Assembly (NCBI GenBank): GCA_963681505.1
Contig: OY811972.1
Span: forward strand, 12,070,279 to 12,134,278
DNA length: 64,000 nt
Source of the DNA: Eunapius fragilis
Lineage: Eukaryota > Porifera > Demospongiae > Spongillida > Spongillidae
Reading direction: 5' to 3'
The first letter of the stretch is position 1, and the number at the start of each line of letters is the position of its first letter. Position numbers and translations under genes: made by a program. Under the pieces are notes generated by a model. That model worked only from the letters and a program-made list of their open reading frames with translations, ran no database searches and was not told the origin of the DNA. This document shows, one piece after another, positions 6,001 to 57,000 of this stretch.

Positions 6001-9000
6001 GTATTCCACTGCTGGAATGTTTATTTGTTCTTCGTATCACATGTACCTATCACATCTCTCCCTTTATCCACTTTACACCAGATGAATTAGAACATCACTT
6101 ACATTAGATGCTATATTCATTCCAGCACCAGCTCCCAACAAGGTCTGTACTATATCACGATGACCTTTCTGACATGCCACATACAGTGGAGTTTTATTGT
6201 TCTGAAAATAAGAGAAGGAACAAAGGCATCACAGATGCACATCAGAATTCTACATTCTGCAGGCATGCACTGTGGAGCTGTGTTGAATAATTATGTGCTG
6301 CATTCCAAATTTTGCATGAGTTATTAAAATAAAGTCTATTCTGATATAGTCTCTCTCTACACATATGCATACTTAAATGCATCACTTGGTTATACCATAG
6401 ATAGAAAAATAACTTCTATCTAGGAAATCTTCTATCTATGGTTACATCATGGCTAGGTCTCATGCACATGTACACACATGTAGATAGCATGACCATTGAA
6501 AATCTAGATGAGTAAAAGGTACAATCTCATATATAATGATTTTGACAATGGCTGTGGATTACAAAGAATTACAAATACAACACATCGTGTGACAACAAAT
6601 ATATATGCAGAAACATGCATCTATCTGTACACGTACAAATTAATAGAATCTAATATCTATGGTGGTAAGGAGGGATAGAGGTGGTGGTCTGTAGGGATAG
6701 AGGTGGTAGTCTATAGGGATAGAGGTGGTGGGTCTGTAGGGTTAGAGGTTGTGGTCTGTAGGGACAGAGGTGGTGGTCTGTACCTATGCACACAAATGGC
6801 CTTTGAATATGATGATAATAAAACATGCTAAATATAGGTGTGTTCCTTTTCCCAAAACCTTTTATTCCAAATCATGTACTAGTACATTAGCCAGTACATG
6901 AAGACCACTGAATGGAGTGGATCATTTCATTATACAAACCATATCAGCCTGATTGATATTAGCTCCTGCTTCAATGAGTTTCTTTACTACCTCAAGGTGT
7001 CCATTGTAGCTTGCTGTCCACAATGGACTCCAACCATCCTAATAGAAGAGTGATCAATGTATCTGTATCAAATTACTGTAAGATGTCTAATGTGTGTGCA
7101 TGATGTACACATGTACATAACCATGACAACCACATGTGACTATGCACACAAAGGACCAGTGAATATGATGATAGTAATTTTGAACAGTGACATACACATA
7201 AGTCAAGAACATCGATGTTGCTGGTCACTGTCCCATATTTACGATGGATTTGATGTTTGATTTAGTGGTTGTATATGTAATATAACATGTCTGAGGTTTG
7301 TTGACCATTTACTCTTGATATGGGCTTTAGGTAGAGGCTCCTGTTCAAATGTCTTAACACAGCGTCCGCGAGTAAAGTGGGTGAAAACGGCCAAAATTTG
7401 GGGGAGGTTTAAAATATAGAAGGTCCACTGATTATTACTTTTCATTTCTGACGCAGGATACTGTTACTACAACTCTTGAGACAACATTTGACCTGCATTC
7501 AGTGAGAGGACCTTTGGTCTGCCGCATGCTATCTACAAGCTGGCAAGTGACCGGTTGACATCAGTGGCATCCGATGTTTTGCTCGTCCAAAATGTTCCAG
7601 AAGTGCAAAGTATATGAACTGAAATTTGACTTTGGGATTGTCATCGGAAGTTTTGTTAGAAACTTCCATATAGGATTTGACCCCAACTATGAATGTCATT
7701 AAAAAAACGCGACCCGTCTGTAACAACACTCCCGACGATCGGATCGTGTAGCTTGTTTTAGCAATCGATCTAGAAGTCAAAAATGAGTAGTTTCGTTTTT
7801 GTTTCATGTCGCTGAACCGCGTGGTTGTTGAGAACAAGAGTGTACTGCCCGTCCTCGTACCCAGTCTCGGAACAAGGGGCGGGTCGTCTTCTCATTCTTC
7901 TTCTTCTCCTTCTTGGCAACGCATAACTCAGGACAGGAACATTTCTAAGCGATAAAAATTTCACCAATAGCTTCAGAATCGACTGGAGGACTCGCTTTTA
8001 TATAATATATGAAAAAAAAATAAAGAAAACAAGTAAATAAAAACATTCTCTACGAGAAAGTTGGTGGGATATAGGATTTGATTATGACATTGGTGGTGTA
8101 AAAAGCAAGGAAACAAGGTCTTATCAGAAGGGAAAATGTCATAGTCCTATATTTAGCACACAAACAACACATGCCCTAGAAATGTGCTAAATATAGGACT
8201 ATGACATTTTCCCTTCTGATAAGACCTTGTTTCCTTGCTTTTTACACCACCAATGTCATAATCAAATCCTATATCCCACCAACTTTCTCGTAGAGAATGT
8301 TTTTATTTACTTGTTTGTGTTGAAAATCGTTTTACAAGCAACACCGCTGTATGTATCAGGGTGGAGATGTATAGCGCTAGCGCTTGAATAGGATCGCCCA
8401 ACATGTACTTTATGTAAATCAATCCATACAATAGTGTAAAAGTCCACTAGTCACTGTACCAGTGTTGGCTGTGAATGCGCTCCTTCCCTATAGTCACTGG
8501 AGCCAGGCTAGCTGTACACAATGTTGCGAGGCAAACTATTAGCATATCGATACACACGTACATGCATGTACACCATTGATAACGATAATAAAGATTACAA
8601 AATGTTTACTTTCTCTCTGACTTTTAATTTTTAAACTACTAACTTTGCTTTTGATTGTTTTATCATGTTCCAAGGGATGTGGTGGGCATAGTGCAGCCTT
8701 GAGATTTCTCAGGGCTTCTGCAGGCTTGATTGTGGGATTACGCTCTACCAATTCTTCAAGGTGTTTAACATACTGCTTTTGTAGATTGCTTCCTCTTCCA
8801 TTTTTCATTCTCATCATGATCACTAACTGCATTGTCCTCATCACTGGCCTTCTTCCTACCAAACAACTTGGTAATTTCTACACGTTTTTCATTCTCCCCA
8901 GGTAAGGTGTAGCGACCAGGATAGAGTGACTGAAGCTCCTCTAACATAGCACATGGACTCATTTTGTCCGAGGAAACACGAGCTCCTTGATCAAACATCC

Positions 9001-19780: not shown

Positions 19781-22700
19781 AGAGGTACACATGTACACTA
19801 GTGATCAGAGGTACACATGTACACTAGTGATCAGAGGTACACATGTACACTAGTGATCAGAGGTACACATGTACACTAGTGATCAGAGGTGCACATGTAC
19901 ACTAGTGATCAGAGGTACACATGTACACTAGTGATCAGAGGTGCACATGTACACTAGTGATCAGAGGTACACATGTACACTAGTGATCAGAGGTACTCAT
20001 GTACACTAGTGATCAGAGGTACACATGTACACCAGTGATCAGAGGTACACATGTACACTAGTGATCAGAGGTACACATGTAATCTAGTGATCAGAGGTAC
20101 ACATGTACACTAGTGATCAGAGGTACACATGTACACTAGTGATCAGAGGTACACATGTACACCAGTGATCAGGGGTACACATGTACACTAGTGATCAGAG
20201 GTACACATGTACACTAATGATCAGAGGTACACATGTAATCTAGTGATCAGAGGTACACATGTACACTAGTGATCAGAGGTACACATGTACACTAGTGATC
20301 AGAGGTACACATGTACACTAGTGATCAGAGGTACACATGTACACTAGTGATCAGAGGTACACATGTACACTAGTGATCAGAGGTACACATGTACACTAGT
20401 GATCAGAGGTACACATGTACACTAGTGATCAGAGGTACACATGTACACTAGTGATCAGAGGTACACATGTACACTAGTGATCAGAGGTACACATGTACAC
20501 TAGTGATCAGAGGTACACATGTACACTAGTGATCAGAGGTACACATGTACACTAGTGATCAGAGGTGCACATGTACACTAGTGATCAGAGGTACACATGT
20601 ACACTAGTGATCAGAGGTGCACATGTACACTAGTGATCAGAGGTACACATGTACACTAGTGATCAGAGGTACTCATGTACACTAGTGATCAGAGGTACAC
20701 ATGTACACCAGTGATCAGAGGTACACATGTACACTAGTGATCAGAGGTACACATGTAATCTAGTGATCAGAGGTACACATGTACACTAGTGATCAGAGGT
20801 ACACATGTACACTAGTGATCAGAGGTACACATGTACACCAGTGATCAGGGGTACACATGTACACTAGTGATCAGAGGTACACATGTACACTAATGATCAG
20901 AGGTACACATGTAATCTAGTGATCAGAGGTACACATGTACACTAGTGATCAGAGGTACACATGTACACTAGTGATCAGAGGTACACATGTACACTAGTGA
21001 TCAGAGGTACACATGTACACTAGTGATCAGAGGTACACATGTACACTAGTGATCAGAGGTACACATGTACACTAGTGATCAGAGGTACACATGTACACTA
21101 GTGATCAGAGGTACACATGTACACTAGTGATCAGAGGTACACATGTACACTAGTGATCAGAGGTACACATGTACACTAGTGATCAGAGGTACACATGTAC
21201 ACTAGTGATCAGAGGTACACATGTACACTAGTGATCAGAGGTGCACATGTACACTAGTGATCAGAGGTACACATGTACACTAGTGATCAGAGGTGCACAT
21301 GTACACTAGTGATCAGAGGTACACATGTACACTAGTGATCAGAGGTACTCATGTACACTAGTGATCAGAGGTACACATGTACACCAGTGATCAGAGGTAC
21401 ACATGTACACTAGTGATCAGAGGTACACATGTACACTGGTGATCAGAGGTACACATGTACACTAGTGATCAGAGGTACACATGTACACTAATGATCAGAG
21501 GTACACATGTAATCTAGTGATCACCACATGTACACTAGTGATCAGAGGTACACATGTACACCAGTGATCAGAGGTACACATGTACACTAGTGATCAGAGG
21601 TACACATGTACACTAGTGATCAGAGGTACACATGTACACTAGTGATCAGAGGTACACATGTACACTAGTGATCAGAGGTACACATGTACACTAGTGATCA
21701 GAGGTACACATGTACACTAGTGATCAGAGGTACACATGTACACCAGTGATCAGAGGTACACATGTACACTAGTGATCAGAGGTACACATGTACACCAGTG
21801 ATCAGAGGTACACATGTACACTAGTGATCAGAGGTACACATGTACACTAGTGATCAGAGGTACACATGTACACTAGTGATCAGAGGTACACATGTACACC
21901 AGTGATCAGAGGTACACATGTACACTAGTGATCAGAGGTACACATGTACACTAGTGATCAGAGGTACACATGTACACCAGTGATCAGAGGTACACATGTA
22001 CACTAGTGATCAGAGGTACACATGTACACCAGTGATCAGAGGTACACATGTACACTAGTGATCAGAGGTACACATGTACACTAGTGATCAGAGGTACACG
22101 TGTACACTAGTGATCAGAGGTACACATGTACACTAGTGATCAGAGGTACACGTGTACACTAGTGATCAGAGGTACACATGTACACCAATGATCAGAGGTA
22201 CACGTGTACACTAGTGATCAGAGGTACACATGTACACCAGTGATCAGAGGTACACGTGTACACTAGTGATCAGAGGTACACGTGTACACTAGTGATCAGA
22301 GGTACACATGTACACTAGTGATCAGAGGTACACATGTACACTAGTGATCAGAGGTACACATGTACACTAGTGATCAGAGGTACACATGTACACTAGTGAT
22401 CAGAGGTACACATGTACACTAGTGATCAGAGGTACACATGTACACCAGTGATCAGAGGTACACGTGTACACTAGTGATCAGAGGTACACATGTACACCAG
22501 TGATCAGAGGTACACGTGTACACTAGTGATCAGAGGTACACATGTACACTAGTGATCAGAGGTACACATGTACACTAGTGATCAGAGGTGCACATGTACA
22601 CTAGTGATCAGAGGTACACATGTACACTAGTGATCAGAGGTACACATGTACACTAGTGATCAGAGGTACACATGTACACCAGTGATCAGAGGTACACATG

Positions 22701-23725
22701 TACACCAGTGATCAGAGGTACACATGTACACTAGTGATCAGAGGTACACATGTACACTAGTGATCAGAGGTACACATGTACACCAGTGATCAGAGGTACA
22801 CATGTACACTAGTGATCAGAGGTACACATGTACACTAGTGATCAGAGGTACACATGTACACTAGTGATCAGAGGTACACATGTACACTAGTGATCAGAGG
22901 TACACATGTACACTAGTGATCAGAGGTACACATGTACACTAGTGATCAGAGGTACACATGTACACCAGTGATCAGAGGTACACATGTACACCAGTGATCA
23001 GAGGTACACATGTACACTAGTGATCAGAGGTACACATGTACACCAGTGATCAGAGGTACACATGTACACCAGTGATCAGAGGTACACATGTACACTAGTG
23101 ATCAGAGGTACACATGTACACTAGTGATCAGAGGTACACATGTACACCAGTGATCAGAGGTGCACATGTACACTAGTGATCAGAGGTACACATGTACACC
23201 AGTGATCAGAGGTACACATGTACACTAGTGATCAGAGGTACACATGTACACTAGTGATCAGAGGTACACATGTACACCAGTGATCAGAGGTACACATGTA
23301 CAGTTGTGATCAGAGGTACACATGTACACCAGTGATCAGAGGTACACATGTACACTAGTGATCAGAGGTACACATGTACACCAGTGATCAGAGGTACACA
23401 TGTACACTAGTGATCAGAGGTACACATGTACACTAGTGATCAGAGGTACACATGTACACCAGTGATCAGAGGTACACATGTACACCAGTGATCAGAGGTA
23501 CACATGTGCACTAGTGATCAGAGGTACACATGTACACTACTGATCAGAGGTACACATGTACACCAGTGATCAGAGGTACACATATACACTAGTGATCAGA
23601 GGTACACATGTACACTAGTGATCAGAGGTACACATGTACACTAGTGATCAGAGGTACACATATACACTAGTGATCAGAGGTACACATGTACACTAGTGAT
23701 CAGAGGTACACATGTACACTAGTAA
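19781..23725. repeat. 26-bp minisatellite filling POLE intron 5 (~150 copies)
   Basis: Unit AGGTACACATGTACACTAGT plus GATCAG (26 bp), nearly invariant over 3.9 kb. The first unit begins at the exon 5 donor itself (AGAG|GTACAC), so every unit carries a donor-like AG|GTACAC. Variant units (GTGCAC, GTACTC, CACCAG, GTAATCTAG, ACTAATG) recur in the same order every 676 bp (26 units) across about 19.88-21.5 kb, which is a higher-order repeat. The second half uses other variants such as CACGTGTAC. Confidence 0.95.
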
Positions 23726-31714: not shown

Positions 31715-34700
31715 ATGGCGCCCCACGAGGTAAGAGTCGTCAGTCAGAAGCTGAGAGGACTCATAGCGTCGAAACGGATGACCACACGTTCTGGTCGAGC
31801 ATATACTACGTCTAGTGGAACAATTGAGAGACAGACAGACATGGACATGGGCGAGAACGAAGCATCGTCACTAGCGGGGGTTGTGGAACTCCTGAAAGTG
31901 ATGCTGGAGGAGAGAAAGCGGAGGAACAAAGAGGGAAGAAGGCACTAGCAAGAGCGACGTGATCGTGAAGAAGGAAGGAAACGAGTAGAGGTAGAAAAGG
32001 AACAAGGGAGACACAAGCGGATGGAAGAGACCCGGCAGAAAGATGAGACCAATCGTCTAAAACAGGAGGAAGAATGGAAGCAGCGAGATAAGGAGCTACG
32101 GTTGCAGATGGAGTTGCTAGCCAAGATCACTGACGTGAAAAAGGCGGAGTCTACGGAGCCAAGCAAGACAGGTGATGATGACCTGCAGTTTGTTAAGTTT
32201 AATGATCGGGACGACGTTGAAGCCTACCTTACCACTTTCGAATGGCTGATGGGATCATACAACATCCCAGACTACACTGAAGCAAGGCAGCAGACTACCA
32301 AAGATGACCAACCTACTGGTTTCAAGCCGTCAACTAAGGATGAACAAGTGACTACTTTTCCAGGCACTAGGATAGACAGTCAATCTGGCAAGGAGGATGG
32401 GGAACCTCCACACACCAGGGACAAGCAACCTTTCAGACCACGACTGAGGCATTGAGACTTATCTACAGTAACCTGTTACAACTGTGGAAAACAGGGGCAT
32501 GTGGCTTCAAAGTGCCCTGAGAAGGTAATGTACTGTATTAAAGGACATCGTGGCAACTCTACACTTCAGAGAAAGGGGCAGGTGGAAGGAAGAGAGGTGA
32601 ATGACATTGTGCTGGATGCTGGGTGCTCTAAGACCATTGTCCATCACAACCTGGTTCCTCAAACAAAACTGTTGCCATGGGAAGCGGTCACTATACGTTG
32701 TGCACATGGAGACAATGTGCTGTACCCTCTTGCAAATGTTGACCTGGTGGTAGACGGAGTTCCACTGACTGTGGAGGCTGCAGTGTTTAAGTCACTACCT
32801 GTGTCTGTGCTCCTGGGAACTGATGTACCCGAGTTGGCAGAGTTCATTGGAGGCAATACCCATGGTGTCAGGCATCAGGTCAATGAAGCCTGGATGGTTG
32901 TGACACGAGCTGGGGCAAGGAAGCAAAAGGAAGAAGACGAAATCCTCATTCAAAAGGAGGAAGTCTCTCAAGTGTGGCCATCAAATGTGGAAACTGAGCT
33001 GGCAGAGGCACAGGCTGCATGTGCAGAGATGGAACGTACAGAGACACTGCAAGGTTGCACCTTGGATGACAATTTGTTCAGTGGTGGTCGATCTAAGGTG
33101 AAGTTGACCAGAAGCCAGAAGTGGGCTCAAAAGCAGTTGCACCAACATAAGATGGGAACTGGTGCATTGGACGTCTCAGTTGTGGAGCTACAGCTGCTGC
33201 AGCTGTGGCAGACCCACAGGCTATACAAGCTGGAGATGCAGAGATGGAGTGTGCAGAGGTAACACCAGAAGGTTACAATATGGATGACAACCTGTTCAGT
33301 GGGGGCTGATCTAGAGTGAAGTTGACCAGAAGCCAAAAGAGGGCTCAGAAGAAGCAACACCAACAGGGGGTGAGGGCTGGTGTACTGGACATCTCAGCTG
33401 AGGAGCTACAGATGTTGCAAAAAGAGGACCCATCCTTGGCCAACTTGAAGGTTGGAGCTGGAGAGCTGCAGGAAACCCACTACTACCTCTCAGATGGACT
33501 TCTATACAGGCAGTGGATACCCAGGGGACGTAATGAGGAGTTGGCTGAGGATCAGCTGGTTCTTCCTACTCAGTGTCTGAAGGGAGTGCTCCAACTGGCA
33601 CACGAGGTACCAATTGCAGGACACTTAGGCAAGCATAAGTCGTCCAAGAGGATCCTATGCAGGTTCTACTGGCCTACCCTCTACAAGGACGTAGTAGATT
33701 TCTGCAGAAGTTGCCAGGTGTGTCAGAGATTCTCGAAACAGAAAGTTGTCAAGGCTCCACTCATTCCACTACCTGTGGTGACAGAACCCTTCAGGCGCGT
33801 GGCAATGGACATTGCATGTAGTGGGCCCACTACCCAGGACCATATCGGGTAACCAATACATTCTCGTGATGTGTGATTACGCCACTCGGTACCCTGAAGT
33901 CACAGCGGTTGATGCAGAGCATATTGCAGAAGAGCTGGTCCAGTTATTTGCTCAAGTTGGCATACCTGAGGTTATGCTGACTGTTCAGGGGAGTAATTTT
34001 ACCTCATAGCTGGTGTCAGAATCTACCAGTTGCTACATGTACACCCAATATGGACATCTCCACACCGTTCCCAGACAGACGGTCTAGTTGAGCGATTTAA
34101 CAAAACTCTGAAGGTAATGCAGCAGAAGGTTGCGGCTGAGGACCAACAAAACTGGGACAAGTGGTTGCCATAAGTGCTGTTTGCGTACATGTACCTGGAA
34201 GTCCCCCAAGACTCTACTGGGTTCTCACCTTTTGAACTTCTATATGGCCGGGCAGTTAGAGGACCTTTGGACATCCTCAATGAGACGTGGAAGGAACCCA
34301 TGAAGTGTAGTGACAATGTGGTGTATTATGTGTTGGCTGTACAGCAGAAATTGGCGAGCATGTCTGACTTGGTGGGAGAGAACCTCAGTGAAGCCCAAAG
34401 GAGGCAGGTCTGGTACGACCGGAATGCACGCCAGAGGGAATTCAAGCCTGGGGACTTGGTACTAGTGTTACTCCCTACTTCAGCGGGATCTCTGACCGCA
34501 CAATGGAAGGGGCCATACCCGGCACTTCACAAGATTGGCAGTGTAAACTACTTGAGACATGCATGACACCAGGAAGCGTGAGCGGACCTTTCATGTCAAC
34601 ATGCATAAGAAGTGGAACATGCCGACGTATGGGAACTACTGGACAGAGGCTGGAGAGGATTGGATGCTAAATGGAGAGGAGGTGGTGGAGGTGACTCCAA

Positions 34701-35205: not shown

Positions 35206-35690
35206 AGGGTCATTCCACTATGACGTTGTATGGGAGCGTGCTTCACATATTCCGATCCTGATGCATTTACTCATATTTGTTTGTCTTTGGGTGAATGTTA
35301 CTTTAACCGCTTATTAAGTTAATAACTTGAATGGTTTACGAAATATGTTGCCCTGAATAATTAATTTTTCCAGAAAATTTGCAACTTTGCAGCCTCATAA
35401 CCTTTCCATTTTTTGCCTGATAGTGACTTTTTTGGCATCAAATTGAAGCTCAATTTACGTAGAATCTGTAAATATATTTAACATTAGTAGGTGGTGAAAG
35501 GGTTAAATAAAATTTATCATCGTAGCGCAGTTTTCTAAATTGAGATGGTTTCCGGATCGATAAACAGAAAAAAAAATTTCAGGATTGAACGTACCATCAA
35601 TATTGTTGTTTTTATGAAATAAAATTTTTGTTTATAGACAAGCTCTAGGGACCGCATCGAGTTTTACGAGTGTCCGCCATCTTAAATGTT
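35206..35690. repeat. Long inverted repeat, left arm (485 bp)
   Basis: Reverse complement of 39235-39719, about 95 percent matched by eye, from AGGGTCATTCCA to the CCGCCATCTTAAATGTT end. The two arms enclose 3.5 kb of nested elements. With the inserts removed they would abut, giving another near-perfect foldback element. Confidence 0.85.
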
Positions 35691-36646
35691 ATACAGTATA
35701 TTTTAGCACTAATCTAAAGTAAGTGTTTGTTTATACGCCAAACGTGTGTTACATAAGTATCGAACCGCAGCTAAGAACACTGGCCACCAATTGCGTTCAG
35801 CTAATTAAAAATGAGTTTTTTTTTTAAGAGTGCATCATTTAGAAGAATGTAGAAATATAAATTGCTTCGTTCTTGTTGCAAGTAAAAAGCAACCAAGCAC
35901 GGCCGAAAACTCTCTTCTTCTTTAAGGCAACCCGGCAGCGATCGCATCTGTGACAGTCGCTATACAAGAACGGGTAGCGATCGAACCGTCCCCTAACTAT
36001 AACCCTGAAGGGCGTATGCATGCTGCTGATACTGCGGGTTTATTCCCGCACACAGCACGTCCAGTGCGTGGGAGCTCAAGGACAATGAAATCAGAGCCAC
36101 CATCCCCACCAATTGCATGCTGCAAGCACCAGTAACAGGCCCCACCGCCATCTCCACCAATTGCAAGTACGGGTAACAGGCCTGTTACTGGTGCTTGCAT
36201 TGGTGGGGATAGCGGTGGGGATGGTGGCTCAGGTTTCATTGTCCTTGAGCTCCCACGCACTGGACGTGCTGTGTGCGGGAGGTATCAACAGCTTTTCAGG
36301 GTTATATAGGAAGGGGACGGTTCGATCGCTACCCGTTCTCGTATAGCGACTGTCATAGATGTGATCGCTGCCGGTCGCCTTCAAGAAGTAGAGAGTTCTC
36401 GGCCGTGGCTGGTTGCTTTTTACTTGCAACAAGAACGAAGCAATTTATATTTGTACATTCATGTGTCATAGACTAGCTTACCTGCCCATTCTTCTAAATG
36501 ATGCACTCTTTAAAAAAAAACTCATTTTTAATTAGCTGAACGCAATTGGTGGCCAGTGTTCTTAGCTGCGGTTCGATACTTATGTCACACACGTGTGGGT
36601 ATATAAACAAACACTTACTTTAGATTAGTGCTAAAATATACTGTAT
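35691..36646. mobile_element. 956-bp near-spacerless palindrome
   Basis: Starts ATACAGTATATTTTAGCAC and ends with its reverse complement. The arms meet at AACAGGCCTGTT near 36176 with essentially no loop. It contains no convincing gene; ORFs on the two strands mirror each other. It is inserted precisely at the inner end of the 485-bp arm. Confidence 0.85.
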
Positions 36647-38400
36647 CTGAACCTGCGGCAGCAGGTTCAATATAGGATTGATTGAGGGTTGATGAATGTC
36701 ATTAATAAAACTTCACTAGCGTCTGGAGGGACAACGGAGAAACGGATCGCTTATCTCTTTATCGCGATGGAATGAGAGCACAACGATCTACAGTTCTACG
36801 TTTGTTCCGTGTCATAAAACGGTGTGGTTATAGAGAAACAAACAATTTCCTGTTTCTCGTGCCCAGTCCCAAAATAATTCTCCATCGTCGTCGTCTTCTT
36901 CTTAGGAAGGTATAACTCGAGCTAGGAACGGTTTTGGAGGACGGGAATAGTACCAATCGCTTCGACATTTACCGGCACGTTATCCTTACATGTCATATAG
37001 ACATACATATATCAAGTTCTATTTATTAATAATTTTAGGCAGTTATAAATTCTCTAACCTGCACTAAATTTATCCAGTTTAATATATTAGTTGTTACGTT
37101 GGCTAATAGTGAAGTTCTTTTTCTAAGAAGAGATCTAAGCAACGAGCGGAATACCTCCAAAGCAATACGAGAACAAAGCTAAAGCCCGAGCGCTCTTAGT
37201 CTACAAGGCCAATCCCAAAAAAGAGAAGGCCTCTGTACGCGACAGCTACAAGGCCGATCCCGAAATGAAGAAGGCCTCTGTACGCGACAGCTACAAGGCC
37301 GATATTGAATCTAAGCGATCTGCTAAAAGGTGGCGTTAAGAAGAGGACCCCAAGGAGAACCGTGCTGCTCAAAGGCGGCGATATGAAGAACCTCGAGGAG
37401 AACCGTGCTGCTAAAACTAAAGGCGGCGATATGAAGAGGACCTCGAGGGAAATCGTGCTGCTAATAGGGAGAAAAATCAGCTACCATTAAAGCATCTGAA
37501 AAGAGACGGTATTGAAATGATCCCGCTGTCTGATTGGCTAAATGTGCTGCCGAGAGGACGCGGTATCGCTGGGGTCACAGAACTACCACTACCACCCAAA
37601 GGTATGTTATGGTATGTTGTATTAACATTAAAAAGCTGTGCATGCAACATTTGTACAGCATAGTCGGGCGGCCCTACTACCGCGTTTGGTCGGGTTTGTC
37701 ACCCTACTACCTGTGGGTAGTAGGGCCCGCCTGACTATGTACATGCAGCACGGATCTGCACAAAACCATTCACTTTACATGTAAAGCATGCATGGTGACT
37801 CAACTGTATGTACAGTAGTGTCTATTGTTTTAATCTGATAAAGCTTCCTTATCTGAAGACTTCCTTGTCTAGCCGTGAATGTTGCAACTGTATGAATATA
37901 GTTACAGTTGCAAGGGCTGAGAACTAAATAGCTGCAACTATATCCTTTTCCCATATAGCTACTCCTTGTATAAACCCAAATCTCATGCACCAATGGAGTA
38001 TAATGGTGGTCTTGAAAAAGCTATTCTTAGGGGTAGTGATCTGCCTGTGCAGCAGTAAGTAAGATAAGCCACCATCAGGTACTTCAAGCTGCACACTCAC
38101 ATTTATGTAGTGAAATAAAAACAGACCTTCTGCCCACACTTATAAGCTGCAGACCCTGTCCACAGATAGGACCTCACCTGAGAACATATCCTTATCGATC
38201 GATCTACATGCTGCCATGTACTGCCATGTAGTTCACTTCCTTAGTTCCCACACTACCCATCTATACACTACATGTAGGATACACCTCCATGTTCATTTTT
38301 ACTGGATCAAATTTGACCAATAGAATTTTAGCACAACTGACACGCATACACCCCTTCCCTCCCTGTCATTAATATGATGGAATTGGACTAATATAATTAT
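36647..38400 (+). mobile_element. Dispersed element with basic-repeat ORF, copy 1
   Basis: Begins ATCTGAACCTGCGGCAGCAG, which folds as a short palindrome, and matches 62827-64000 along its visible length with indels. About 37150-37600 encodes, in broken frame, tandem 15-residue basic/acidic units (YKADPEMKKASVRDS) followed by RRRYEE-type repeats. Such repeats occur in mobile-element proteins of sponges (from memory, not searched). The 5' part resembles the bodies at 7.6 and 54.6 kb. Confidence 0.7.
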
Positions 38401-38560
38401 AGCACAGTCTGCACACGTATAAGGCTTTGCAGGTATAAAAGCCACTCATCCGCTAGCAAAAAGAGGTAAAAATTTAATAATACTCTATGTAGATGTGTAA
38501 AGGCTCTGCACTAAATAAAGAAGTAAAAATTTAATCATACTCTCTGTTACGTATATGTAG

Positions 38561-38866
38561 ATGGCTGACGACCTTCGCGGGTTTTTCACCAATGAGGGGT
38601 CGGAGGAGGAAGAGTACATTCATCCTCCAACTCCTCTCCCCTTCACCCCGCCACCTCCAGAAGCCCCGCTTCTGCCACCACCACCAGCAGCACTGCCCAC
38701 ACCACTACCAGCAGCTACTCCCGCCGGCACCACCAGCGCTGCCCCCACCGGCGCTCCTGCCTGCACCATCATTGCTGCCCCCACCACCAGTGCTGCCCCC
38801 ACCACCAGTGCTGCCCCCACCACCAGCAGTACTATTAAAGTTATTTGTTCTTGCATTAAGAGATAA
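38561..38866 (+). CDS. Small acidic/Pro-Ala-rich ORF of unknown function
   Basis: 101 codons starting MADDLRGFFTNEGSEEEEYI, then Pro-rich and Ala/Pro/Thr repeats. It lies between the dispersed element and a hairpin MITE. The acidic start could be the N-terminal exon of a transposase, but no domain is seen and the rest is low complexity. Confidence 0.3.
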   Translation: MADDLRGFFTNEGSEEEEYIHPPTPLPFTPPPPEAPLLPPPPAALPTPLPAATPAGTTSAAPTGAPACTIIAAPTTSAAPTTSAAPTTSSTIKVICSCIKR

Positions 38867-38943
38867 AGGGGATCATCCATCCTCTTCCTACATTTGATTA
38901 TTGACTATGATACTGCTATGACAGGATGAAAAAAACTTATGAA

Positions 38944-39234
38944 ACAAGTAAATAAAAACATTCTCTAACGAGAGAGTTGTTGGTATATAGGATTGACCAA
39001 TGGTGGTGTAAAAAGCATGGAAACAAGAGTGACAGAAATATTATTGGAAAATTGAAATAGGCCTATATTTAGCACACAATACAACACACATGCCTGAATA
39101 AAGGGCTAAATATAGGCCTATTTCAATTTTCCAATAATATTTCTGTCACTCTTGTTTCCATGCTTTTTACACCACCATTGGTCAATCCTATATACCAACA
39201 ACTCTCTCGTTAGAGAATGTTTTTATTTACTTGT
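38944..39234. mobile_element. Hairpin MITE, diverged copy
   Basis: Same ends as the 8029 copy. The arms match each other perfectly over about 115 bp, yet differ from the arms of the 8029 copy by many substitutions and indels (for example a GAGTGACAGAAATATTATTG segment absent there). Confidence 0.85.
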
Positions 39235-39719
39235 AACATTTAAGATGGCGGACACTCGTAAAACTCGATGCGGTCCCTACAGCTTGTCTATAAACAAAAA
39301 TTTTATTTCATAAAAACAACAATATTGATGGTCCGTTCAATCCTGAAAATTTATTTTTCTGTTTATCGATCCGGAAACCATCTCAATTTAGAAAACTGCG
39401 CTACGATGATAAATTTTATTTAACCCTTTCACCACCTACTAATGTTAAATATATTTACAGATTCTACGTAAATTGAGCTTCAATTTGATGCTAAAGAAGG
39501 CACTACCAGGCAAAAAATGAAAAGGTTATAAGCCTGCAAAGTTGCAAATTTTCTGGAAAAATTAATTATTCAGGGCAACATATTTCGTAAACCATTCAAG
39601 TTATTAACATAATAAGCGGTTAAAGTAACATTCACCCAAAGACAAACAAATATGAGTAAATGCATCAGGATCGGAAGATGTGAAGCACGCACTTACCCCA
39701 CTTATAATGGAATGACCCT
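39235..39719. repeat. Long inverted repeat, right arm (485 bp)
   Basis: Pairs with 35206-35690. Begins AACATTTAAGATGGCGG immediately after the MITE and ends GGAATGACCCT. Confidence 0.85.
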
Positions 39720-40018: not shown

Positions 40019-41104
40019 AACCCCAGTGTCACAACCATGCTACCACCCCCTGTGTTGCAACCATGCTAACACCCCCTGTGTCACAACCATGCTACCACCC
40101 CCTGTGTCACAACCATGCTACCACCCTCTGTGTCACAACCATGCTACCACCCCCTGTGTCACAACCATGCTACCACCCCCTGTGTCACAACCATGCTACC
40201 ACTCCCTGTGTCACAACCATGCTACCACCCCCTGTGTCACAACCATGCTACCACCCCCTGTGTCACAACCATGCTAACACCCCCTGTGTCACAACCATGC
40301 TACCACCCCCTGTGTCACAACCATGCTACCACCCTCTGTGTCACAACCATGCTACCACCCCCTGTGTCACAACCATGCTACCACCCCCTGTGTCACAACC
40401 ATGCTACCACTCCCTGTGTCACAACCATGCTACCACCCCCTGTGTCACAACCATGCTACCACCCCCTGTGTCACAACCATGCTAACACCCCCTGTGTCAC
40501 AACCATGCTACCACCCCCTGTGTCACAACCATGCTACCACCCTCTGTGTCACAACCATGCTACCACCCCCTGTGTCACAACCATGCTACCACCCCCTGTG
40601 TCACAACCATGCTACCACCCCCTGTGTCACAACCATGCTACCACCCCCTGTGTCACAACCATGCTATCACCCCCTGTGTCACAACCATGCTACCACCCCC
40701 TGTGTCATAACCATGCTACCACCTCCTGTGTCACAACCATGCTACCACCTCCTGTGTCACAACCATGCTACCACCCCCAGTGTCACAACCATGCTACCAC
40801 CCCCTGTGTCACAACCATGCTACCACCCACTGTGTCACAACCATGCTACCACCCCCTGTGTCACAACCATGCTACCACCCCCTGTGTCACAACCATGCTA
40901 TCACCCCCTGTGTCACAACCATGCTACCACCTCCTGTGTCACAACCATGCTACCACCCTCAGTGTCACAACCATGCTACCACCCCCTGTGTCACAACCAT
41001 GCTACCACCCCCTGTGTCACAACCATGCTACCACCCCCTGTGTCACAACCATGCTACCACCCCCTGTGTCACAACCATGCTATCACCCCCTGTGTCACAA
41101 CCAT
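40019..41104. repeat. Second 26-bp minisatellite (~41 copies)
   Basis: Unit CCACCCCCTGTGTCACAACC plus ATGCTA (26 bp). Variants CACCCTCTG, CACTCCCTG and CTAACACC recur about every 208 bp (8 units) in the first half, a higher-order period. Frames up to 383 codons cross it in several registers and are repeat artefacts. Confidence 0.95.
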
Positions 41105-48012: not shown

Positions 48013-51000
48013 CTGGGCCAAGGGATTTGGTTTGTAAAACACAACACAGTTGCATGGGGTGGTCAACATACCAAGAGGGTCCTCGGACACACTTGAGTAA
48101 TCATCACTATCTGTACTTGGAACTGTATCAGCTGCAACCCCATATTCTCCAGTTCCTCCAACTTGTCTTCTACGTTGACTCCCACCATCTGAGTGTGGTT
48201 AATGTCTTGTTATTGCATTAAATAAAAACAGTGGTCTCAATAACGAATGATGCTGCAGGTAATACAACATATGATAATACATTGGTTGCTATGACAACAT
48301 ACTGGATAGCTGAGATAATTTCCATTGAGAGGGAAGCTCTGATACGCACATATGCTTAAACTACCTACTTACCTGCTTCCTTCATCCCAATGAGTTCCAA
48401 CAGGTGCAGCTCCACCTTCTTCCACTCACTCACTTTCACTTGCTTTTTTTTGGTTGAGTCAGCAACTGTATTCTTCTTGTTACGAACCTTCTCCTTCAAC
48501 AGCTCAAGCTCAACTGTGGCTTGTGTGTGGTCTGAGGTGGCCTCAGGTGGACATGAGATCAACTCCACCACTGAAACTGATGGACAGAACTCACCACATG
48601 CCTCTCTAATAACTTGCATAACTGATAATGCATACTGAGGGTTACTGTCTACAGAGGTGGTGACAGTGCATGACAGACATCTGAAGTCATCCATCATCTC
48701 AACAACAGTGATGACTCCTTCGTCATTCATCCAGCTAATCCCTTTACTCCATACATCACAACTTCGATTGTATTTGTCCAGTTCTGGAACCAATGACGGT
48801 TCATCAGCTAAAGCAAAGCCATCTGCAAGCCTTGTGGTGATAACATGGAGACAGCGTGGGGAGAAGGATTGATTGATGCTGGTAGTACATACATGCCAAC
48901 CAATGCTCTTTTGTGTGACGATGACATTGGAAGGTTTTTCCACACGGACACATGCGGGGAAATACAGGAGAGGACCAAGATCAGTGGAAGGTGTGTTGGG
49001 AGACCCAATAGGTGCTATGTTAGTGTTCACATTGGTCAAGGTGATGGGTACACATAGTTCAAATAACTTCAGGAACTGAACCATCATTTCAATGTTGTCT
49101 CGGAAGTGTTCTCTCAAAACAGGTATAGGAATCACTCCAGTGTTGCTGGCTATAGGGAGGTGCTCCTCGAATGATTCAGGAGCAAACAAGACTCCATTCA
49201 CCTTCTCCATCAATGCCTCAGGATGAAGAACTATCCAGCTGTTGGCCTCATCACCATGAAGGAACACAATAAGACCTTTATCAGATAGGGTTTTCAGCAA
49301 TGGTGTGACCTCAGAGGCGTCAGTTGGCAGGAACTTTGGTTCCTCTTGCCTTAGAAGGGTAAGAAGCTGGGATAGGGGTATGGCATCCAGTTGTGCAGGG
49401 ACCCTGTCATTTAAGAAGGCATACATCATGTGGCTATTCAGGGATATAGCAGGGTGCTTGGCTATAACACTGCTGTTGGTTTGGCGTAATGATGACATAA
49501 AACTCTTCATCTCCTTTCCTTGGAGATCTGTAGCATTGAGAGCAGTGAACCCAACAAAGGTGTGCTTAGTTAGGGCTTTTCTAGCAACCCTCTCTATGTC
49601 CTTTTGCAGCGATTCCAGCTTCCTCTTGTCAGCTATCCCATCGGCATGGGTTCCCATCACAATAACTGAGCAATGTTCAGAACACTTGTGACAAACATCA
49701 CCGATCATTGCAGACCAGTAGTAGAGCTGTGCAATGATGTCTTTGAGGTCCTGGAGCATGTTGACCAGCATGAGGAAGGTAGAGGGAGTGAGTGAGATGG
49801 CTTCCAGGGCAGCACAATGACTACTGTAGTACTCGCGGTGACCAGCGAGGTCAAAGAGCATCATGTTCATCTCTTCATTCTTAACCAGATGAGGGACAAT
49901 ACCAGCTGTTAAGAGCTTCACAGGACCAGGGTGGGTAACATCAGCAGCTTTACCCTGAATGTATTTCAGGTTAACATTATGAAACATTATAGAGCATAGT
50001 ATTACAAAGTACAACAGTACATACAAACCCGGTGAAGTCACTACTCACTACATGAAACATCGCCATTTTTTTTTCCTTCTCATAATGGAATTTTCCACCT
50101 TTGATTAAATGTATGAACACGCCACTTTAATAATATGAAATGGTGGATGTCAAACAGCATGAGGTACCCTGCTCTGTTTAAGGTAAGAGGGTGTGTCTCA
50201 TACTGTACTTCTAGTTGAAGTACACATTAACATATAAAGTCATCTCTTAAAGTTATGCCCTGCATCTGCATATGTATATGTACGTGTATGTGTACATGTT
50301 TGCGTATTTGTACAAGGGTATGTAGTAGTGTTAGAACTGTAGCTTAGGGCTGGGAAGTGTGTGTCCGTGCACTTGCACATATATGTATAATTTGTGGTGT
50401 TGCCATCATAACTTTACTGCTGAACTTTGACATGAAGGTGGGATGATGGTAACCGTCCAAAAGCTAGATGAGTTCACTCTTGAGCGTGAGTCACGGCGTG
50501 GTGTGGCCAACAAAATAGAAAAGGAGAGAATGGTTACCAATTTTTTTAAGTGGTAGGAAGCAAGATGCACTCCACTCTACATGACTTCTTGGCCCCTTTC
50601 AAGCATTAAGATAAGAAAGTTGGTTGATGCGTTGGCCCGCCTTTTTGAGCAAAGACCCATTTTCATAAACGAGACCAGCGGCAGGGTGAACCTATATCAC
50701 CATAGTTTTGTCTGAACTAAGAAGACTAGTGGCGTCTTGCACATTTCGCACTTTCTTGGAATAGGCACTTGGAGATTGGTTAGTGTGTGGAGTGTTGAAT
50801 GAGGCAGTGCAAATAATGGAAGCAAATTTACTCTTAGTAAGGGTTTTCAAAATAGTTCAGGAAATTGAGTCTGCAGCCTGGTTTTGTAAATAAAAGAATT
50901 CATGTGAACAGTTGACATGCCCCATAGGGAAAGTAGAAGACTCTCAGGAAAGCAGGGTAGAGAAGGTCATGCAAAGGGTCCACCGAGACACATTTCCGGC

Positions 51001-54000: not shown

Positions 54001-57000
54001 TAGAATAAAAACTAGACAGTTAAGATGCCAATGTTCCTCCCTGGCTGTCCATCTATTCTCTTCAAATTTTAGCATTATGGAACACAAGTAAATAAAAACA
54101 TTCTCTACGAGAAAGTTGGTGGGATATAGGATTTGATTATGACATTGGTGGTGTAAAACGCAAGGAAACAAGGTCTTATCAGAAGGGAAAATGTCATAGT
54201 CCTATATTTAGCACATTTCTAGGGCATGTGTTGTTTGTGTGCTAAATATAGGACTATGACATTTTCCCTTCTGATAAGACCTTGTTTCACACCACCAATG
54301 TCATAATCAAATCCTATATCCCACCAACTTTCTCGTAGAGAATGTTTTTATTTACTTGTTTTCTTAATTTTTTTTCATACCCAAGTAACCCAATGACTGT
54401 TGTATGGCTGCTTCTCCCTTTTCATTTCTTTATACACATGCCGTTTATCTTTAGATACCGTAATTAAATTATACAAGACATAGGAGGCTGATAGTCGATT
54501 GTTTATCAAAGTATTATATTATATAAAAGCGAGTCCTCCAGCCGATTCTGAAGCTATTGGTGAAATTTTCATCGCTTAGAAATGTTCCTGTCCTGAGTTA
54601 TGCGTTGCCAAGAAGAAGGAGAAGAAGACGACCCGCCCCTTGTTCCGAGACTGGGTACGAGGACGGGCAGCACACTCTTGTTCTCAACAACCACGCGGTT
54701 CAGCAACATGAAACAAAAACGAAACTACTCATTTTTGACTTCTAGATCGATTGCTAAAACAAGCTACACGATCCGATCGTCGGGAGTGTTGTTACAGACG
54801 GGTCGCGTTTTTTAATGACTTCATAGTCGTGGTCAAATCCTATATGGAAGTTTCTAACGAAACTTCCGATATGACAAAGATGAAAATTATGGGGTCATTG
54901 TGAATGAAAGAGACCTAACAGAATTATCCACTCCAAACAAGCATAACTTGTATCGATAAAGGATAAGCCACATTCCAATGCCATGCAGTTAGTAGGGTCC
55001 AGTTTAATCTTGTCCTTAAGTACTGATGAATGGAAACGAGTTCACATGAAACCTAATGTCCTAACAATTGCAATGTGAGTAGTTTTGCATGGGATATTCC
55101 ATGCTAAGCCTTCTCAAGTTTATTGAACAAACAATAAAACGGTGTATATTCCAGCTGCTTGGTTAGCTAACAAGTTGTTGTTTGGTGTGGATAAACAATT
55201 CAATAGGCAGAGAGACCTTCCCGTGCGCATTTTGTGCCTTTTAATGACATTAGTACATAGAACTCAGAGGTAAGTAACTGGCTATGGGTCCTGCTTGTTT
55301 TAAACTACGATTGTTGAGCGAACAACAACTAGTACTAATCGAGTGTGGGTGGTTACATCACAAAATGGTGCCTTTGAATACTGCTTTGTCTACTCCGCCT
55401 TTTCCTCTTTGCAAGTATCATGTCGATTCCACTGGCTTCCAAGACTTGAATATATTTTAAAAATCACTATTTCCAGTAGAAAGTTAAGGAATTGTTAGGA
55501 TAACGCTTTTACATTACTTGTGTTCATCAAGGGCAAATTGTGTTTTGTACGATCCCAATTTAAATAATTATTGGAGCCTGTAATGCCATTAAGCAAGACA
55601 TGGCGTTCCAGTGGTGGTGCACACAGATGGTAGTCCTCATTTCATGTCACAGGAATTCCAAGCATTCTCAAGGTCATGGGATTTTGTTAACACTTTTTCC
55701 TCTCCATACAACTGTCAATAAAATGGTAAGGTAGAATTTGCAGTTAAAATTGTGAAGTGACTTTTCAAGCAAAGTTTAGACCCATACCTGGCTCTTCTGG
55801 AATGGCGCAATACTACTACTCTACAACAACTACAAAAGAGGATCCTGTATTTTAACCTTTTTTCAAATACTTGATTATTGGAACCATGGTTACTTTACCC
55901 ATCGCAAACAAAAAATTTAAAAAATTGGAGATACAGAGAGCCATCAAGCTAAAGCAAAGGGGAAGACACTAGACTACTGAAAGTGGGTGATTCTGTACTA
56001 GTCATGGACCTTAATTCTAATTAAGAAGACTGAGTGGATGCAAGGATATTGTCTATTTGCATCCGTGTGTACACCTGTACACATATTGGGTAATATGTGT
56101 ACAGGGGAGCACAAATTACTTACCCTACCTTATCTTTGTAAGTAATCACATTTGTCATTCAAAAATCAATGTATTAGTACACAACAGATAATTAATTGAT
56201 GGTCACTAATAATTCAAATTATTTGATTGTTATCTGACAAATAAACCACATTAGAAAAACAAAGAAAACTGCGCATGCGACTGAGGTGTACGTGTACGCA
56301 GAGCAAGAGGATGTGTTGACAGTGGAGAGGCTCGAATAGTGGAGGTGCAAATGGTGGAGCGCGAATAGTGGAGGCGCAAGTAGAGGAGGTACGAGCACTG
56401 AAAGCTCGAATAGTGGAGGCATTAATGGTGGAGGCGCGAATAGTGGAGGCGCGAGTAGAGAAGGCACGATCGAGCACTGAAGGCTCGAATAGTGGAGGCA
56501 CAAATGGTGGAGGCGCGAATAGTGGAGGCGCAAGCACTGAAGGTGCAAATAGTGAAAGCGTGAGTAGTGGAGGCATGGTAGGGAATTCGAAGTGGCAGAG
56601 GAAGTGCAAGTAGAGGTTGAGGAAGTGCAAGTAGAGGTAGAGGAAGTGCAAGTAGAGGTAGAGGAAGTGCAAGTAGAGGTAGAGGAAGTGCAAGTGGAGG
56701 TAGAGGAAGTGCAAGTAGAGGTAGAGGAAGTGCAAGTAGGAGTGAAGGAGTAAAACCTCAAAACCTAAAGCTGCAGTCTGCCCTGAGATGGTGGAGTGAT
56801 ACTAACATGATCATTTAGCATTGTTGCTGTTTTTGATACACCAGTGATTGAATTTGCATGATTTTTTGCAATGAACATCATTTTCCTACATAGGACTAAT
56901 TTGTGTACACCTGTACACATTTTACTGCAAAACTTTCCTGATACAACTGCATGAATAATTTCATATTATATAGTTACTATATCATGCCCTCTATCACTTT

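Follow-up and report, generated by a model that had tools for sequence, protein, structure and literature searches.

The giant hairpins described here are the 3' termini of Helitron-type elements in the sponge Eunapius fragilis; their two arms evolve as mirror images of each other, and the loop between them has been inverted recurrently. Three such elements lie in the window, i.e. the whole stretch of 64,000 nt analysed here (GenBank assembly GCA_963681505.1, contig OY811972.1, positions 12,070,279 to 12,134,278).

Hairpin-ended elements in the window

Element I (7644-8313, forward strand) is a non-autonomous Helitron of body type B with a conserved body flank; it runs from 5' TC to 3' CTTG and is inserted between A and T. 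It starts with a short 5'-terminal hairpin (7644-7667, 9-bp stem with one mismatch) and ends with a giant 3'-terminal hairpin of 284 nt (8030-8313), whose arms (8027-8160 and 8183-8316, matching flank bases included) are 134 nt long and 100% complementary. Element II (36646-39233, forward strand), a longer Helitron derivative of body type C, retains, ahead of its hairpin, a stretch (~37,160-37,390) that resembles the beginning of the RepHel open frame, and has a 5'-terminal hairpin at 36646-36669 with the stem TGAACCTGC/GCAGGTTCA. Its 3'-terminal giant hairpin of 289 nt (38945-39233), our main object of study, is evident both from arm pairing (38939-39073 with 39105-39239, 135 nt, 99% complementary) and from the fold of 38943-39235 as single-stranded DNA (-153 kcal/mol, z = -35.65). 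Element III (54085-54869, reverse strand), whose ends were also located, is a non-autonomous Helitron of body type D, and comparison of the arms of its 3'-terminal hairpin (54085-54358) shows a one-sided deletion in one of them. All three elements extend beyond their hairpins. The longest exact arm within the window measures 134 nt, vs 12-16 nt in five mononucleotide shuffles.

An earlier note on this DNA had read matching arms within the copies at 8029 and 38944, symmetric substitutions and indels between these two, and a one-sided deletion in the copy at 54084, all of which our comparison bears out. The copies at 8029 and 38944 belong to different subfamilies, and the 20 substitution and 15 gap columns at which the arms of the two consensuses differ are without exception mirrored in both arms (first 160 alignment columns). 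The hairpin at 54085-54358 is of the same subfamily as the copy at 8029. In the subfamily of element II there is a fixed arm mismatch on the loop side, one in each of L001-L008. The strong divergence between copies that the note had also reported holds between subfamilies but not within one, where copies are near-identical.

Several other features surround these elements. Element II adjoins a long imperfect palindrome at 35691-36645 (arms 92-97% in pieces, ends TACAGT...ACTGTA), which in our view resembles a mariner-type MITE and whose arms, unlike those of the Helitron hairpin, are not homogenised. The nested insertions are flanked by inverted copies (35301-35689 vs 39236-39625, 378 of 390 alignment positions), so that element II interrupts an older, large palindrome at its centre. 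Tandem arrays of two different 26-bp units are found at 19781-23723 (about 152 copies, 96% matches) and, downstream of element II, at 40021-41104 (about 42 copies). Two open frames gave weak matches below the cut-off, namely 32501-33262 (forward strand) to gag-asp_proteas (aspartyl-protease), probably a retroelement fragment, and 48365-50041 (reverse strand, 558 aa) to COR-B.

The hairpins are Helitron 3' termini

The genome comprises 219 Mb in 24 contigs. Its two strands carry 1,755 and 1,772 occurrences of the 21-base hairpin end, and none of the same pattern reversed as a control. A hairpin is typically 283-295 nt long, with arms of about 131-140 nt and a loop of about 22-31 nt, and extends to the terminus of the element. 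Its 3' end reads CTTG in the three window copies and in most others, a few having point changes; the host base that follows (CTTG|T) is T in 91 of 93 distinct insertions, and the base before the hairpin is A in 90 of them. At the 5' end, A precedes the TC in all three window copies and in 15/15 aligned copies of type A, which start with TCGGAAG and carry a 5' hairpin. With these neighbouring bases, and with no target-site duplication seen by eye in the aligned copies, the elements insert between A and T in the manner of Helitrons. The TC is followed by a 9-bp stem in the autonomous element and in those subfamilies whose 5' end was reached. Moreover, throughout the first 38 loci (8 plus 30 of the 40 places scored by similarity to the window copies) one flank of the hairpin is common to other loci while the opposite flank is different, L019 and L020 being mutual duplicates.

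A profile search of the genome for the Helitron Rep domain (PF14214) matched 91 places, some with long open frames. The autonomous element (L049, L094, L119, L120) has an open frame of 1,977 aa with Pfam matches to Helitron_like_N, REP_ORF2-G2P, PIF1 and OTU (pieces L049 and L094), and a second frame of 182 aa with no Pfam match. It begins with TC and a 9-bp hairpin and ends in a giant hairpin with 131-nt arms that are 100% complementary; element II resembles it at the 5' end, in a repeated region close to where the open frame begins, and in the hairpin. Among the 40 of 1,365 candidates scored, a hairpin of the autonomous type was found 5.1-6.7 kb (computed by hand) downstream of nine Rep matches, that of L094 included. 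No giant hairpin was present in the 1,101 and 1,001 bases examined downstream of two further RepHel matches (L109 and L110), nor in the downstream stretch examined for L095, a member of the stronger Rep class, so the hairpin is established for the RepHel group of L094 only. This stronger class, the second among the Helitron Rep domains (L039-L043, 218-220 bits), showed no hairpin end in the stretches examined.

Taken together, the single conserved flank, the A|T insertion, the 5' TC with its 9-bp hairpin and the RepHel element with a homologous hairpin identify the hairpins as Helitron 3' termini. RepHel in full-length members, A|T insertion without target-site duplication and 5' TC are features of the Helitron superfamily, and the 5'-terminal hairpin is one of Helitron2. 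Two features of canonical Helitron1 are lacking: the 3' end is CTTG instead of CTRR, and instead of a short subterminal hairpin 10-12 nt from the end there is one that reaches the terminus. No short asymmetric terminal inverted repeat of the Helitron2 kind was seen by eye upstream of the 3' hairpin; a 5' inner motif recurs in both arms. This motif, just inside the 5' end, consists of ATATAGG and subfamily-specific bases (ATTTGA, TTTTG, ATTGA, AATC), and in all five subfamilies for which the 5' end could be reached, the hairpin arms repeat the variant of their own subfamily; in L064, a C replaces the first T. The motif is plausibly a recognition site of the transposase.

As inverted repeats of ~135 bp present in some two thousand copies, the hairpins could pass for an ordinary MITE family in which every subfamily stems from a fresh inverted duplication, and the earlier note had indeed called them MITEs. 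A MITE is short, stands alone, and has terminal inverted repeats and a target duplication, whereas in the copies aligned here the element includes one of the flanks and no duplication of the target is seen; the ends are Helitron-like, and RepHel partners share the same hairpin. In addition, the arms of different subfamilies align over their full length with shared blocks and were thus not built afresh from unrelated sequence. We therefore rejected this origin, which we regard as extremely improbable.

Mirrored evolution of the hairpin arms

The 93 distinct insertions were drawn from three sources: copies resembling those of the window, copies close to the hairpin of the autonomous element, and a set of 44 hairpins that the end 21-mer picked out in the initial 5 Mb of contig C1. 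Here, 11 of 53 loci were left out of the counts because they had no distinct paired hairpin, and later picks required both ends to be exact, which biases the C1 sample toward intact copies. Four duplicates were removed from the arm set, among them the two window copies that correspond to L001 and L016. Of the 178 alignment columns, the arm counts use columns 1-160, away from the loop side.

Within a copy, the distance between the arms has a median of 0 and a mean of 0.0096 (93 insertions), compared to a median of 0.177 between clusters, and 58 of the 93 insertions show no substitution between their arms at all. The C1 sample alone gives a within-copy median of 0.008 and a mean of 0.017, vs 0.16. 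Arm divergence within copies comparable to that between them, which the earlier note had named as evidence against its reading, is rare: among the 44 C1 hairpins the arm distance equals or exceeds that to the nearest other subfamily consensus in only 4.

Seven subfamilies have at least two copies (86 copies in all). In each of them the left consensus arm equals the right one, and within the 160 columns there is not a single unpaired position. Comparing the 21 subfamily pairs, which are not independent of each other, we found 350 of 350 substitution and 252 of 252 gap columns to be mirrored; counted as distinct variable columns among the seven consensuses, these amount to 35 for substitutions, with at least 49 changes, and 30 for gaps, again all mirrored. 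The same applies to the three arm sites at which a sister of the autonomous subfamily (L111, L112, L117) differs from it, with one further one-sided change each in L114 and L116. In a tree of the arms (up to four copies per cluster), left and right arms group by subfamily, the exceptions to nearest-neighbour pairing being the two arms of L060, L066, L081 and L113. Genome-wide, a diagnostic base pair near the loop is concordant in 1,988 cores (1,391 + 597) and discordant in 7. Near the loop, outside the counted columns, the agreement of the arms is lower (0.72-0.85 in five columns).

Mirrored changes might also accumulate if the arms mutated independently and compensatory changes were retained because an RNA or a single-stranded DNA is selected to fold perfectly. 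The fold is extremely stable, the short 5' stems differ symmetrically between subfamilies as well, the hairpin of Helraiser is described as a termination signal (PMC4778049), and compensatory change is reported for two Helitron2 elements (PMC3627910). However, all 30 gap columns between subfamilies are mirrored, and selection on a small-RNA precursor alone does not readily explain mirrored indels; compensatory change would leave mismatches in some subfamilies, whose consensuses are fully paired in the counted columns, and it leaves the loop inversion unexplained. We thus consider it very unlikely.

Inherited and private changes

Among the 86 copies, 49 of the 55 private substitutions (found in one insertion only) are one-sided and 6 are mirrored. 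Private gap columns are one-sided in 19 of 28 cases, and eight of the nine mirrored ones represent one 8-nt insertion in L097. Nine substitution variants are shared between insertions: six are mirrored in every copy, one (column 120) is mirrored in three of four copies and one-sided in the other, and two (columns 145 and 140, two insertions each) are one-sided. Nine shared gap columns are likewise one-sided, in two insertions, on opposite arms. L113, in which only the left arm is changed at column 120, may be an intermediate; the outgroups have a gap there. Inherited changes being mostly mirrored and private ones mostly one-sided, symmetry would arise in the spreading lineage, and the shared one-sided variants suggest that templating was absent in some cycles. 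As far as these sequence patterns go, symmetry thus seems to be made often, but not in every cycle. The private one-sided substitutions, 26 on the right and 23 on the left, do not single out either arm as the template.

The private changes also bear on the idea that one arm was copied onto the other during assembly or polishing, where reads of one arm could map to the opposite arm. It is hardly credible, as 49 private one-sided substitutions survive and the differences between subfamilies are consistent across many separate insertions.

The main rival explanation is homogenisation of the arms within the chromosome, independent of transposition, by gene conversion, cruciform processing or template switching during replication. 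For other palindromes, concerted evolution of the arms is discussed along with template switching (PMC6649704), the six private mirrored substitutions in single copies would fit such a process, and recombination between arms would invert the loop, too. On the other hand, some resident copies have strongly diverged arms (14 mismatches in L060, 11 in L069_3157, 9 in L018_372 and 7 in L074), and private substitutions are one-sided in 49 cases vs 6 mirrored. A further argument against it comes from an internal palindrome in the body of the same elements, known from 19 copies, which keeps a one-sided deletion: of these copies, 12-13 lack a 9-nt stretch in the left arm and 0-1 lack it in the right arm, and one has lost part of it on both sides. 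That this inherited deletion was not homogenised suggests that homogenisation favours the 3'-terminal hairpin, and it may even be specific to the 3' end, a conclusion drawn from a single deletion in a palindrome that is possibly younger. On this evidence we regard homogenisation in the chromosome as possible, if on balance unlikely.

The internal palindrome itself (L009, L011, L014 and 16 other loci) is near-perfect, about 125-150 bp long, and ends ~40 bases before the hairpin. It is bounded by TGTCTTGT on both sides in 18 of 19 copies and probably represents a hAT-like MITE within type A Helitrons.

Loop inversion and a probable templating of the arms

With the body set to the left, two subfamilies show the rarer exact orientation of the loop in part of their copies (8 of 45 and 2 of 5, respectively), and a third is split 4 and 5 among its nine copies. 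The loop is thus inverted in 15 of 59 copies of three subfamilies, and in 0 of 27 in the four others, where it is uniform (9, 8, 7 and 3 copies). The copies linked to RepHel show both orientations as well, four as in L094 (three on C1, one on C3) and five opposite (C22, C13 and three on C9), these nine being counted singly although some may duplicate one locus. A loop that may face either way with respect to the body, a feature of rolling-hairpin replication, is expected from arm-to-arm exchange or copying of the folded hairpin. Small loop inversions also arise by ordinary recombination between repeats.

We think the hairpins are probably best explained as Helitron ends whose folding during the transposition cycle templates one arm on the other and in which exchange flips the loop. 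According to this model, the displaced or terminal strand would fold back during the cycle, and mismatches between the arms would be repaired, or the 3' arm would be cut back and synthesised anew with the 5' arm as template; either way, the arms of the next copy would match. A crossover or template switch within the folded structure would invert the loop, and the hairpin would serve as 3' end and termination signal. The step of the cycle at which templating would act is our inference. Arm-to-arm templating as such, put forward in the earlier note, is strongly supported by the mirrored inherited changes, the one-sided private ones and the loop inversion. A self-priming 3' hairpin, with the terminal arm resynthesised on its partner and the hairpin copied as flip and flop in a parvovirus-like end mechanism, is conceivable but rather improbable.

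Comparison with known systems

Little is understood of the way in which Helitrons terminate and rebuild their 3' end. If the arms are copied from each other during spread, as they seem to be, these elements offer a rare view of how Helitron ends are handled: with their built-in arm mismatches and the two states of their loop, some two thousand copies constitute a natural record of the end over many cycles, which makes end templating directly testable. They are also a warning that hairpin-ended Helitron families may be mistaken for MITEs.

Like these elements, parvoviruses have a terminal hairpin in flip and flop forms, with the loop in two orientations, and an HUH initiator. They differ in being viruses that bear hairpins at both genome ends and replicate by the rolling-hairpin mode.

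In the literature searched, with most subscription papers and Repbase outside its scope, we found no Helitron 3' hairpin near this size. Helitrons as such are a known class; one whose giant terminal hairpin undergoes concerted evolution and flipping is, as far as this literature goes, a new form of it. Outside the Helitrons, Galileo and foldback-like elements are described with repeats that are 98-100% identical within a copy, diverged subfamilies and a proposed role of conversion; unlike the elements studied here, Galileo is P-element-like, has 7-bp target duplications and carries its repeats on the flanks of the whole element (PMC3573991). Nematomorph mitochondria, as portrayed in PMC6649704, share perfect inverted repeats of up to 284 bp with concerted arms, for which template switching is proposed, but these palindromes lie in mitochondrial coding sequence and at no transposon end.

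With Helitron1 and Helraiser our elements have in common 5' TC, A-T insertion, RepHel and a 3' hairpin, while those elements, as described, end in CTRR and ours in CTTG with a 5' hairpin in addition (PMC4778049, PMC5876387). The 3' hairpin of Helitron1 is short (PMC5148889); that of Helraiser, a palindrome of 19 bp, lies 11 nt before the end (PMC4778049), compared to the giant, terminal one found here. In Helraiser, the 3' hairpin is reported to act as termination signal and the plus strand to be transposed, with circular intermediates (PMC4778049, PMC5876387). Helitron2, with hairpins at both ends (PMC3627910), and the Helentrons share RepHel, the hairpins at both ends, a short terminal 5' hairpin and sequence common to the 5' end and the 3' region (PMC3627910, PMC5148889, PMC4067079). 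Their 3' palindromes, however, are small and subterminal in the accounts given there, measuring 5-10 bp in the HINE elements of mites (PMC4067079), whereas in E. fragilis arms of 131-140 nt reach the very terminus of the element.
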